This document shows, in pieces, positions 1 to 26,639 of a DNA stretch of 64,000 nt. How positions within the stretch are numbered: the stretch's first letter is position 1; the number at the start of each line of letters is the position of its first letter. The DNA comes from Coriobacteriaceae bacterium. GTDB taxonomy: Bacteria; Actinomycetota; Coriobacteriia; Coriobacteriales; Coriobacteriaceae. Under the pieces are notes generated by a model. The model saw only the letters and a program-made list of their open reading frames with translations, had not been told where the DNA came from and did not search any database. The DNA is taken from positions 15,782 to 79,781 of the forward strand of contig CABIZD010000007.1 of NCBI GenBank assembly GCA_902363125.1. Reading direction: 5' to 3'. The position numbers and the translations under genes were made by a program.

Positions 1-57
1 ACCCCCCCCCCCATCTATGAATCCAAAATCAAGTAATTTGCCGTCGCAACGTCTCCC

Positions 58-648
58 TTACGTTTTGCTGGGCACGTCTAACGGAAGCAGCTCCCTAAAT
101 GTGGAGTCACCCTCGCCCACGTCTACCAGGCACCAGCGCTTATGACGGTCTATCTTCTTTACACGGGCCTCTTGCCCCACCAAGGGCCCCTGTTCTATGT
201 GCAACACGCCGTTTTCTATGCGCGCGACGCTGTTGCGCACCACGTCGTCGTCGTCCAGAACGCTGCGGTACCAGTCCTGTGCGTCGTCCGGCATGGGCAT
301 GTACGCCCGCTCCCTACTGCCAGCGATGCGGCAGCCAAAGCTCAGCTGGGCCAAAGCCCTATCGAGCGCAGCGGCATCGTGCGTGGCGACGAAGAAATAT
401 TCCTTGTACATGGGTTTGGTTTGGAGCGACCAGGCGCCGTCCGGCTTAAACCAGAACTCCTTTTGCATCACAAAAGCGTCCTGCATCAACTCGTGCGGGA
501 TAATGCAGCGGACCTTTTCGCAGGTCTCGCGCTCTTTTCCATGGGGGGTGTGAACCAGATACCAGCGAACGCGGCCGTGCTGGCTGCTGATGGTGGCGCC
601 GTTAAAAGCGCCTGGCAGCTGCTCTTGGCGCCGTGCCGTCTGATCCAT
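58..648 (-). CDS. loaP: NusG-like antiterminator, LoaP/UpxY type
   Basis: A 196-residue NusG paralogue. The NGN domain starts near residue 28 (RWYLVHTPHGKERE) and a KOW-like segment lies near residues 154-172 (GPLVGQEARVKKID). Specialised NusG proteins of this type ride on RNA polymerase and suppress pausing or termination in one long operon, usually for capsule, exopolysaccharide or secondary metabolites. Here the gene points out of the left edge, so the target operon is probably just outside. The start is the ATG preceded by GAGGGGGCG; an ATG 33 nt upstream in frame has no ribosome site. No housekeeping nusG neighbours (secE, rplK) are present, which supports the paralogue reading. The upstream region holds a candidate invertible promoter. 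The family is fairly sure; the loaP symbol is less so. Confidence 0.8.
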   Translation of the reverse strand: MDQTARRQEQLPGAFNGATISSQHGRVRWYLVHTPHGKERETCEKVRCIIPHELMQDAFVMQKEFWFKPDGAWSLQTKPMYKEYFFVATHDAAALDRALAQLSFGCRIAGSRERAYMPMPDDAQDWYRSVLDDDDVVRNSVARIENGVLHIEQGPLVGQEARVKKIDRHKRWCLVDVGEGDSTFRELLPLDVPSKT

Positions 649-732
649 GTTCTCGCCCCCTCTTTTGGCTTTGCGATGCACGCAAATGCAGGGGCGTTTA
701 GAACAGGCTTCTCGCTCGCAGCTAGGCGCAGT

Positions 733-870
733 CGCAAAAGTACAGGTTTTTATAGAGGGGTATGGAGATGTACCTACTAGCAGTACATTTTGCGTAATCT
801 GGGCAAACGCTGATTAATTGCTCGTATAATGTCGTCTGTCGAAAGATACAAAAACCTGTACCTTTTTGCG
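733..870. other. Candidate invertible promoter segment upstream of the LoaP-like gene
   Basis: Perfect 12-bp inverted repeats (GTACAGGTTTTT at 740-751, its complement at 850-861) flank 98 bp. Both arms extend outward with a CGCAAAA block (733-739 and 864-870), offset by two bases. A perfect TATAAT (825-830) lies inside and faces right, away from the gene and towards a strong hairpin terminator. Inversion would move this -10 to about 771-776 on the minus strand, facing the antiterminator gene with a leader of about 115 nt. The repeats and -10 are seen directly; switching is inferred by analogy with invertible promoters of UpxY-controlled capsule operons. No recombinase gene is in the window. 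Confidence 0.55.
800..830 (+). promoter_or_regulatory. Sigma70-like promoter inside the invertible segment
   Basis: TATAAT at 825-830 with a weak -35 (TGGGCA, 800-805) at 19-bp spacing. In the orientation read here it would make only a transcript of about 65-70 nt ending at the next hairpin. Confidence 0.5.
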
Positions 871-873
871 CAA

Positions 874-905
874 CAAAAAAAGCCGCTCAACCAGCGGCTT
901 TTCTT
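874..905. terminator. Bidirectional hairpin terminator
   Basis: Perfect 7-bp stem (AGCCGCT/AGCGGCT) with a 5-nt loop, followed by TTTT on the plus strand and seven T on the minus strand. It would stop rightward transcription from the promoter at 825-830 and backs up the thrS terminator on the other strand. Confidence 0.8.
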
Positions 906-974: not shown

Positions 975-2738
975 TTAGGCGCGAGTCTTGATCTCCTCGG
1001 TCACCTTGGCAACAAACTCGTCAACGCTCATCTGAACGGTCTCGTTGGAGCGATCGCGGACGGAGATGTTGCCGGCCTCGACCTCCTTCTCGCCCAGAAT
1101 GAGCATGTAGGGCACGCGGTCGATGCTGCGGGCCTCGCGGATCTTGTAGCCGATCTTCTCATCGCGATCGTCGCAGACCACGCGAATGCCGGCCTCCTCC
1201 AGCTTGGCGCACACCTCGTGGGCGTAGTCGCGGCTCTTCTCAGAGACGGGAAGTGCCTTGACCTGCACGGGAGCCAGCCAGGTGGGGAACTTGCCCGCAA
1301 AGTGCTCAATCAGAATACCAATGAAGCGCTCGATGGAGCCAAAGCACACGCGGTGCAGCATGATGGGGCGCTTCTTGGTGCCGTCAGCGTCCACGTACTC
1401 CAGGTCAAAGTTGAGCGGCATCTGGAAGTCGAGCTGCACGGTACCGCACTGCCAGGTACGGCCGAGCGAATCCTCCAGGTGGAAGTCGATCTTGGGGCCG
1501 TAGAAGGCGCCGTCGCCCTCGTTGACCTCGTAGTCCATGCCCAGTTTCTCCAGAGCGGTGCGCAGGCCCTCCTCGGCGCGCGCCCAGTCCTCGTCCGAGC
1601 CCATGGAGTCCTCGGGGCGGGTGGAAAGCTCAACATGGTACTTAAAGCCAAACTTTTGGTACACAGAGTCGATGAGGTTGACCACGCCCACGATCTCGTC
1701 GGTCAGCTGGTCGGGACGCACAAACAGGTGGGCATCGTCCTGGTTAAAGCAGCGCACGCGGAACAGACCGTGCAGGGCGCCGCGCAGCTCGTGGCGGTGC
1801 ACCAGGCCAATCTCGCCGGCGCGGATGGGCAGCTCGCGGTAGGAGTGCGGCTTGGAGGCGTACACCAGCACGCCGCCTGGGCAGTTCATGGGCTTAATGC
1901 AGTACTCTTCGTCGTCGATGACGGTGGAGTACATGTTGTCCTTGTAGTGGTCCCAGTGGCCCGAGGTCTTCCACAGCTGCTTGTTCATGATGAGCGGCGT
2001 GGAGATCTCCACGTAGCCGGCCTTGTGGTGGATCTCGCGCCAGTAGTCCAGCAGCGTGTTCTTAAGGATCATGCCGTTGGGCAGGAAGAATGGGAAGCCG
2101 GGGGCCTCGTCGCGCATCATAAAGAGGTCCATCTCGCGGCCGATCTTGCGGTGGTCGCGCTTCTTGGCCTCCTCCAGCATGTGCATGTGCTCGTCGAGCT
2201 CTTCCTTGGTGGCAAAGGCGACGCCGTTGATGCGGGTGAGCATCTTGTTGTCCTTGTCGCCCTTCCAGTAAGCGCCCGAGACGCCGGTGAGCTTAAAGGC
2301 CTTGAGGGCCTTGGTGTAGCAGATGTGGGGGCCGACGCACATGTCGATGTAGTCGCCCTGCTGGTAGAAGGTGATGCGGGCGTCGTCGTCCAGGTCGCCG
2401 ATGTGCTCGACCTTGTACTTCTCGCCGCGCTCCTCCATAAGGGCGATGGCCTCGGCGCGGGGCTTCTCGTACACGGAAAACTTGAGGTTCTCCTTGACGA
2501 TCTTCTTCATCTCAGCCTCGATCGCGGGGAAGTCGTCCTCGCTGATCTTGACGCCCTCGGGCAGGTCGACGTCGTAGTAGAAGCCGTTGTCGGTCGCGGG
2601 ACCGTAGGCAAAGTCGGCCTCGGGATAGAGGCGCTTGATGGCCTGCGCCATGATGTGCGCGGCGGAGTGGCGGATGACGTGCGTGACCTCGTCCTGCGGG
2701 AGCTCGGCCACCGAACCGTCATTGTAGAGTGCCTTCAT
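975..2738 (-). CDS. thrS: Threonyl-tRNA synthetase lacking the TGS domain
   Basis: Cytoplasmic class II aminoacyl-tRNA synthetase that charges tRNA-Thr. The protein is 587 residues, about 50 shorter than the common form, because it starts almost directly at the editing domain: the HSAAH zinc motif is at residues 24-28, followed by the CVGPH motif. The catalytic core is intact, with MNCPGG (zinc cysteine), motif 2 RHELRGALHGLFRVR and DDAHLF. A C-terminal anticodon-binding domain follows. The N-terminal TGS domain is absent, not broken, since the ATG has a good GAGAGGAG site and no coding extension is seen upstream. It has its own promoter and leader hairpin, so it is probably monocistronic. 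Confidence 0.96.
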   Translation of the reverse strand: MKALYNDGSVAELPQDEVTHVIRHSAAHIMAQAIKRLYPEADFAYGPATDNGFYYDVDLPEGVKISEDDFPAIEAEMKKIVKENLKFSVYEKPRAEAIALMEERGEKYKVEHIGDLDDDARITFYQQGDYIDMCVGPHICYTKALKAFKLTGVSGAYWKGDKDNKMLTRINGVAFATKEELDEHMHMLEEAKKRDHRKIGREMDLFMMRDEAPGFPFFLPNGMILKNTLLDYWREIHHKAGYVEISTPLIMNKQLWKTSGHWDHYKDNMYSTVIDDEEYCIKPMNCPGGVLVYASKPHSYRELPIRAGEIGLVHRHELRGALHGLFRVRCFNQDDAHLFVRPDQLTDEIVGVVNLIDSVYQKFGFKYHVELSTRPEDSMGSDEDWARAEEGLRTALEKLGMDYEVNEGDGAFYGPKIDFHLEDSLGRTWQCGTVQLDFQMPLNFDLEYVDADGTKKRPIMLHRVCFGSIERFIGILIEHFAGKFPTWLAPVQVKALPVSEKSRDYAHEVCAKLEEAGIRVVCDDRDEKIGYKIREARSIDRVPYMLILGEKEVEAGNISVRDRSNETVQMSVDEFVAKVTEEIKTRA

Positions 2739-3495: not shown

Positions 3496-3710
3496 TCTCA
3501 ATCTGTAACAGTTAGGAACGGAATCCGGGTCTAGGTGTTACAGATCGAGACACAGGGGTCCCTCCCCGACTTCAATCTCGATCTGTAACATCTTGGGCCC
3601 CAAAACCCCTCTTACTGTTACAGATCGAGACATTCAAAATCCGCCGGAAGGTTTGTCTCGATCTGTAACATCTAGAACCCAAATCCTCGTCTAACCGTTA
3701 CAGGTCGAGA
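3496..3710. repeat. Array of 15-bp repeats in alternating orientation, exact 40-bp period
   Basis: Six copies of TCTCGATCTGTAACA start at 3496, 3536, 3576, 3616, 3656 and 3696. Copies 1, 3 and 5 are forward; copies 2, 4 and 6 are the reverse complement. Copies 2-5 are identical; copy 1 has one change and copy 6 two. Every spacer is exactly 25 bp and the spacers differ, although those after copies 1, 3 and 5 look like diverged relatives. Each neighbouring pair could fold into a 15-bp stem. It fills the gap between the leftward zinc-ribbon gene and the rightward GlpA-like gene; the rest of 3396-3880 holds no convincing gene. Confidence 0.9.
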
Positions 3711-8470: not shown

Positions 8471-8630
8471 GCCACAAAAACGGCCTATCTACTACGTTTA
8501 GCCGGCATGGGTCGACCATACCCGTGTTTTCGCAAAACTGGTAAGCCATCTACCTGCGGTTTTCATTTCGCAATTCTCGGTGTGGTCGGGGGTAGTCGGT
8601 AAAACGTAGTAGATAGGCACATTTCGTGGC
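8471..8630. repeat. 160-bp element with terminal inverted repeats, copy 1
   Basis: Begins GCCACAAAAACGGCC and ends TTTCGTGGC. CTATCTACTACGTTT (8485-8499) is inverted at 8602-8616. It has an internal CATCTACCTGCGGTTTT. It lies between the convergent M24 and folC genes. A second copy of identical length is at 22876. No reading frame is convincing; a MITE or a structured RNA are the main options. Confidence 0.85.
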
Positions 8631-22875: not shown

Positions 22876-23035
22876 GCCACGAAAACGGCCCATCTACTAC
22901 GTTTAACCAGCAAGGGTTAACCATACCCACTTTTTCGTAACATCGGCAAGTCATCTACCTGCGGTTTTGTTTTTGCGGTTTTTGAAATGGTCGAGGGTAG
23001 TCACTTAAACGTAGTAGATAGGCAGGTTTTGTGGC
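22876..23035. repeat. 160-bp element with terminal inverted repeats, copy 2
   Basis: Begins GCCACGAAAACGGCC and ends TTTTGTGGC, with ATCTACTACGTTTA inverted at 23006-23019. The internal CATCTACCTGCGGTTTT is shared with the copy at 8471, and both are exactly 160 bp. It separates selB from selC. Confidence 0.85.
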
Positions 23036-26561: not shown

Positions 26562-26639
26562 AGGGACAGGTCCATTATGGCAGCTCGTGACAAGACGTCG
26601 AAGCACCTCGTCCAAAACCTGCCAAATAAACCTGTCCCT
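26562..26639. repeat. Inverted repeat between focA and selA
   Basis: AGGGACAGGT and ACCTGTCCCT, perfect 10-bp arms 58 bp apart. The interval holds an ATG-led stretch of about 37 codons running past the repeat, without a good ribosome site, so no gene is called. Confidence 0.5.

Follow-up and report, generated by a model that had tools for sequence, protein, structure and literature searches.

The probable switch locus and its neighbourhood

The stretch of DNA analysed here, referred to throughout as the window, is 64 kb of a Coriobacteriaceae genome that groups with Collinsella aerofaciens and close species. Its first genes and features, with window coordinates and strand, are:

2..12, minus strand: poly-G tract, G11 on the minus strand (C11 on the plus strand), just downstream of loaP
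58..681, minus strand: gene for a LoaP-like antiterminator of the NusG family (GTG at 681 as listed; by eye, ATG at 648 is probably the start)
733..754, plus strand: loaP-proximal recombination site, CGCAAAAGTACAGGTTTTTATA, with a perfect arm at 740-751
742-743, plus strand: putative 2-bp core AC of the loaP-proximal site, from the site consensus and dyad axis of 44 loci
752..849, plus strand: invertible segment, 98 nt between the 12-mers, in the OFF orientation in the window
825..830, plus strand: TATAAT, -10 element of the invertible promoter, directed away from loaP
847..870, minus strand: thrS-proximal recombination site, inverted, with a perfect arm at 850-861
858-859, minus strand: putative core AC of the thrS-proximal site (GT on the plus strand), from the consensus of 44 loci
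878..902, plus strand: terminator-like hairpin between thrS and the switch, predicted to stop OFF-state transcription
975..2738, minus strand: thrS-like ORF, adjoining the switch on the side opposite loaP; the name was given by eye, from the sequence rather than by a family search

A 12-mer, GTACAGGTTTTT, occupies 740-751 and recurs without mismatch as its complement, AAAAACCTGTAC, at 850-861 after a spacer of 98 nt, and the TATAAT at 825-830 points outward, just as the original prediction had described. The promoter was also said to meet a terminator within 70 bp, and the hairpin at 878-902 does begin 47 nt past the TATAAT (shuffling that stretch gives about 0.7 such sites by chance). By geometry, a TATAAT on the plus strand points away from the loaP-type ORF on the minus strand, in agreement with the view that the switch is OFF in this assembly. 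There was no sigma-70 promoter match and no recognisable TTGACA-like -35 in the window's segment; TATAAT is present in 17 of the 18 segments (17 relatives and the window). The CGCAAAA extensions noted previously around the repeats are real, but they are out of register by 2 nt (CGCAAAA-GTAC versus CGCAAAAAG-GTAC), and on the thrS side the CGC is mostly lost in relatives.

Taken alone, the repeat is weak evidence, because shuffled windows (n = 30) average about 1.2 perfect 12-mer inverted pairs with a spacer of 50-200 nt, and other perfect inverted pairs, longer than 12 bp, also exist in the window. What lifts the repeats above chance is their conservation in orthologous loci, together with the finding of the inner segment in both orientations.

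The adjacent gene had been taken to encode a LoaP-type antiterminator. LoaP (NF033641) is indeed the best NCBIfam match of the window protein, but at 86 bits it lies under the cut-off of 125 (five relatives score 79-110), and we therefore call the protein LoaP-like. Pfam gave no match to the window protein, and UpxY (NF033644) reached 22 bits, below its cut-off of 100; a profile built from the protein finds NusG chains and structures (best E 7.9e-9), and its predicted structure model has a mean pLDDT of 87. A simple stem search in 9 relatives found no UNCG hairpin upstream of loaP or in the 220 nt behind it, and no Rfam element behind loaP scored above the gathering score in six relatives.

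Orientation of the segment in close relatives

Some loaP-like match was found in 84 of the 197 relatives searched, and an orthologue at 88-95% identity is present in 17 of them, which all belong to the same genus; the named loci among these 17 are from C. aerofaciens and close Collinsella, and the genomes compared are different species-level representatives, both isolates and MAGs. Both 12-mers are retained in 16 of the 17 orthologous loci, with a spacer of 98 nt in 14, 99 nt in one and 395 nt in one, the last because of an insertion in that locus; the contig of the remaining one, L005, covers the switch only as far as a point within the segment. thrS adjoins the switch in 15 of the 17, which are all the loci whose contig reaches thrS, and the exact 12-mer pair occurs once per genome in the window's clade.

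The promoter had been proposed to be invertible and strains had been suggested as the place to look for both orientations, and between genomes both are found: the segment lies as in the window in six of the 17 (L002, L006, L012, L014, L015, L016) and is inverted in 11 (L001, L003, L004, L005, L007, L008, L009, L010, L011, L013, L017), so that window and relatives together make 7 OFF and 11 ON. Orientation was taken from the loaP-side part in L001, which carries the insertion, and in L005, which is partial; L014 has an indel and a low ungapped score, and was oriented from a gapped alignment. The outer flanks are fixed and the inner bases beside the repeats move with the segment, which places the exchange inside the 12-mer.

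Phylogenetic analysis of loaP and thrS DNA from 18 close sequences (thrS is missing from two rows) gave 5 changes of the orientation label on the best flank tree and 5-6 on bootstrap trees, and well-supported branches alone force at least 2; L015 and L017 are sister sequences with opposite orientation, and the orientations show no clustering beyond that of randomly reassigned labels (a count as low arose in 159 of 500 shuffles). The split of 6 versus 11 and the 5 changes on the tree, at least 2 of them forced, make it very likely that the segment has flipped repeatedly in the window's clade; that the locus is a genuine promoter switch, flipped again and again, is likewise very likely. Inversion is presumed to be ongoing within a strain as well.

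A family of probable loaP switches

Paired inverted sites were sought upstream of 33 loaP loci at least 40% identical, 30 of them outside the window's clade (some sharing one genome or being close relatives) and 3 of the 17 inside it, with a threshold score of at least 13 of 22, shuffles (n = 200 per locus) scored by the same rule, and core variants picked after inspection of the loci. Such sites are present in 32 of the 33, each score being reached by at most 1 of 200 shuffles; L195, a close loaP homologue, has no paired sites upstream. None of 14 distant loaP homologues (26-33% identical) reaches 13, the best score being 12. L151, also a distant homologue, has a recombinase beside it and no sites. 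The named members of the family are Adlercreutzia, C. ihumii, C. tanakaei and Atopobiaceae MAGs. The distant homologues L139-L146, which lack such a switch, share other upstream palindromes (GTTGTATGTATAACAAC, TATATACAACAT).

A site consensus was drawn from the 44 loci with sites, 29 outside the clade and 15 inside. The central dinucleotide is identical at both sites in 42 of the 44 (L134 and L153 differ), a conservation that is partly by construction because the sites were anchored on the core, whereas the AAAA and TTTT arms are independent of that choice. The core is AC, with AG in five loci of family f2 (L135, L136, L158-L160), and dyad symmetry is maximal at this dinucleotide (0.64; next best 0.46).

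Nineteen pairs of segments from outside the window's clade were similar enough for comparison, 12 in the same and 7 in opposite orientation; the opposite pairs are L137/L138 (0.87), L149/L194 (0.88), L149/L197 (0.39), L192/L197 (0.45), and L135 versus L158, L159 and L160 (0.51, 0.53 and 0.38). Both orientations of the aligned segments occur in four lineages, namely the window's clade and three others.

The candidate recombinase

Nothing related to the serine enzymes described here was found in the 64-kb window, as had been anticipated. The search for a linked recombinase, suggested at the same time, gave a small serine recombinase immediately upstream of the switch at 15 of 24 loci outside the window's clade, and beside the switch at 0 of 9 loci examined inside it. 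No recombinase was found beside the switch in 9 of the 24; L131 has a partial recombinase only, upstream of the switch, and the contig of L136 starts at the recombinase position, so that this locus is uninformative there.

The window's clade has an unlinked serine recombinase of 200 residues, to which the loaP-linked recombinases are 59-64% identical; it adjoins an RNase-R-like ORF (named by eye) in L108 and L110, the two loci with neighbours listed. Copies 86-100% identical are present in 21 of 43 genus genomes, and 20 of these 21 have the switch (17 with loaP; G007, G011 and G029 with a piece at a contig end), a co-occurrence for which shared ancestry is a confounder because it lies within one clade. 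The exception, G013, has the enzyme and neither a loaP orthologue nor the 12-mer. The unlinked enzyme is the only PF00239 match in G001, G004, G019, G041 and G042, of which two are OFF and three ON. In G039, whose assembly has the switch ON, the recombinase gene is split across two contigs, one ending in a 282-bp insertion element.

PF00239 matches three of the enzymes at 105-116 bits, and all finer families remain below cut-off: the Mpi master invertase (NF009949) at 39, 50 and 52 bits of 272, XisF at 48-55 of 375, and IS607 at 35-46 of 110. For the window-clade enzyme, XisF (55 bits) and IS607 (46 bits) outrank Mpi (39 bits), again all below cut-off. An enzyme tree of 31 rows has the 15 motif-filtered loaP-linked enzymes, the unlinked ones and six others on one side of a branch with 100/100 support, which parts them from three enzymes of another type. 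The switch is likely worked by this serine recombinase family, and the unlinked small serine recombinase appears to be the best candidate enzyme in the window's clade, where it would act in trans.

Were the segment invertible but moved in the window's clade by a resident tyrosine recombinase, or by some other enzyme than the unlinked serine recombinase, candidates would be at hand: PF00589 (tyrosine recombinase) matches occur in 43 of 43 genus genomes, at least 1 to 13 in each among the matches listed, and the serine enzyme is not linked to the switch there. We nevertheless consider this unlikely, since the site anatomy, a dyad with a 2-bp core, suits a serine enzyme, the relatives of this enzyme adjoin the same kind of site in the 15 of 24 loci, and the tree keeps linked and unlinked serine enzymes on the same side of the 100/100 branch.

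Two observations on recombinase genes are recorded here in their own right. A PF00589 frame, mostly of 328 codons, carries one in-frame TAG in at least 11 genus genomes (e.g. G001:C19:4054-4581). L201 and L202 have serine recombinase relatives upstream of ORFs of great length (1052 and 1578 aa), which may encode surface proteins, and a pattern search found one AG-type dyad site each between recombinase and large ORF.

Related motifs and other repeats

When five genomes were scanned with up to 2 mismatches, loaP was the only place with two true sites close together and inverted, and nearly all other matches were the motif AAAAGGGACAGGTTTA/G. The AAAAGGGACAGGTTTA motif, which resembles the switch site, occurs in 17-25 places per genome (G042, G015, G024, G008, G001). 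Upstream of the unlinked recombinase (L108) it forms the palindrome TAAACCTG..CAGGTTTA; the full palindrome was not found in the window, where there is a half-match at 26626.

This dispersed motif, mostly AAAAGGGACAGGTTTA in the five genomes and with one copy directly upstream of the recombinase gene, could suggest that the repeats are operators for a regulator, with the differences in orientation being old and rare rearrangements; the switch sites are themselves dyads, and the same orientation was seen in 12 of the 19 comparable pairs outside the window's clade. Repeats of 12 bp, however, are too short for homologous recombination, which counts against old rearrangements, and both the 5 orientation changes among 18 close sequences, with four lineages affected, and the identity of the cores in 42 of 44 site pairs argue against the operator reading, which we regard as distinctly improbable. 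A chance repeat combined with an assembly artefact is ruled out by the comparison across orthologous loci and retains a negligible probability: about one perfect 12-mer pair at such spacing is expected per shuffled window, but isolates and MAGs alike keep this pair, at 16 of 17 orthologous loci, its orientation differs in four lineages, and a 98-nt segment fits inside one read.

Several further elements were encountered. The 282-bp insertion element, with 15-bp direct repeats, lies inside the invertible segment of G008 (L001 2286-2567); further copies are in L032 and L040, and incomplete ones at L102 and L118. In G040 (L091-L097) GTACAGGTTTTT occurs nine times, eight times within the context TCAGTTTGGTACAGGTTTTT, and one pair of the copies is inverted 87 nt apart; the switch-type recombinase family is absent from G040 at E 1e-20. 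In the window, 8483-8618 and 22892-23019 are two copies of an element of about 130 bp with inverted-repeat ends CTATCTACTACGTTT or close to it, one copy adjoining a tRNA-Sec gene, possibly a miniature mobile element; at 3501-3670 a TGTTACAGATCGAGACA-like sequence and its complement alternate in a cluster.

The polysaccharide operon and its poly-G tracts

A polysaccharide operon had been presumed to lie beyond the window. It is found behind loaP in relatives, but was not seen in this genome: in the relatives the first gene encodes an initiating-type sugar transferase (L032, from its sequence), followed by glycosyltransferases, a polysaccharide pyruvyl transferase, UDP-sugar enzymes and a Wzy_C protein. 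Pfam matches were obtained for 8 of 10 operon proteins tested, and none for two flippase-like ones; gene content varies among genomes. Given this linkage of loaP to polysaccharide genes, the switch likely acts on a surface polysaccharide operon via the LoaP-like protein, which would antiterminate that operon, with capsule on or off as the presumed outcome.

The C11 tract at 2-12 is the sole G/C run of at least 8 within the 64-kb window, and the equivalent tract has 4-11 G in the 17 relatives. Across 39 loci (348 kb) there are 22 G/C runs of at least 8. Twelve of them follow loaP by no more than 200 nt; among the remaining ten, nine are G runs at distances of 0.7-12 kb behind the gene. A tract just behind loaP is present in L132, L133, L149, L150, L153, L154, L192 and L194, and in several lineages outside the clade it lies some 12-14 codons after the likely ATG of the first gene. 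Reading frames were examined in 16 of 24 loci, four of which were uninformative: the tract keeps the sugar transferase in frame in L131 (G5), L150 (G8), L152 (G5) and L197 (G5) and leaves it out of frame in L132 (G9), L133 (G10), L153 (G10), L154 (G9) and L192 (G11), whereas in L149 and L194 (both G10) the frame depends on the ATG chosen. A TTG start that would make the tract coding in the window's clade is not conserved; given the uncertain start codon, the tract may be part of the leader in that clade. The variable poly-G tract is a possible second, slippage-type switch.

A proposed mechanism and its relation to known systems

We propose, with good confidence, that the locus is a phase-variable promoter switch in which a serine recombinase flips the loaP promoter of a polysaccharide operon. 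A small serine recombinase would bind the two inverted dyad sites, of the type AAAA(G)GT-AC-ASSTTTT, and cut at the 2-bp core, inverting the roughly 98-114 bp between them. In the ON orientation, that of 11 of the 17 relatives, the promoter would read into loaP, and LoaP would let RNA polymerase read through a long polysaccharide operon starting directly behind loaP; in the OFF orientation, that of the window, the promoter would run into the terminator before thrS and loaP would stay silent.

A broader proposal, which we judge about as likely to hold as to fail, is a two-tier random control of polysaccharide loci in Coriobacteriia. The recombinase would flip the promoter of the LoaP-type gene, turning the whole operon on or off; slippage in poly-G tracts, located at the beginning of the sugar transferase gene and further along the operon, would alter the set of genes in frame; in the C. 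aerofaciens group the enzyme would have been relocated and act in trans.

Capsule switching in Bacteroides fragilis uses the Mpi serine invertase, invertible promoters and UpxY antiterminators, and gut invertons have reportedly been surveyed by Jiang et al. in 2019 and Chanin et al. in 2024. The parallel with Bacteroides drawn in the original prediction holds for the working scheme: an invertible promoter, a NusG-paralogue antiterminator heading a surface-polysaccharide operon, and a serine recombinase. It does not extend to the proteins; the antiterminator here is LoaP-like and not UpxY (20-41 bits across the LoaP-like proteins where matched, cut-off 100), and at 39-52 bits against 272 the three enzymes scored are not Mpi by cut-off. 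The window's clade has one exact 12-mer pair per genome, and other lineages often have the enzyme beside the switch, in further distinction from B. fragilis. We found no report of an invertible loaP promoter in the literature searched, mainly open main texts without supplements.

According to the available text on Bacillus velezensis, LoaP there is likewise a specialised NusG paralogue beside a long biosynthetic operon, but in Bacillus it targets antibiotic operons via a UNCG hairpin, and no such hairpin was found at the loci searched here; in that text "phase varia" has 0 occurrences and "invert" two (PMC12691694). In Eggerthella lenta, a related gut bacterium, the accessible part of a preprint describes megabase inversions of capsule clusters with loaP, in which inversions of about 2 Mb are bounded by a 16-bp repeat and the breakpoints yielded no recombinase gene (PMC13174815). 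There too inversion alters the link between loaP and capsule genes, but the element described here is a flipping promoter of about 100 bp, with a different repeat and a linked recombinase family. A survey of gut invertons gives a median of 14 per genome in Actinobacteriota; these are short, as is the Collinsella segment, and the main text has no "Collinsella," "LoaP" or "NusG," although its supplementary tables may list such loci (PMC11892184).

Collinsella and its relatives are common in the human gut, and their surface variation is sparsely described in the literature searched. A conserved on/off switch would offer a testable and specific explanation for cells differing in phage sensitivity, immune recognition and colonisation, and the scheme of an antiterminator with an invertible promoter, known from Bacteroides, would gain a parallel in another phylum. 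With the site consensus and the enzyme family, the orientation of such switches may be read from existing genomes and reads.
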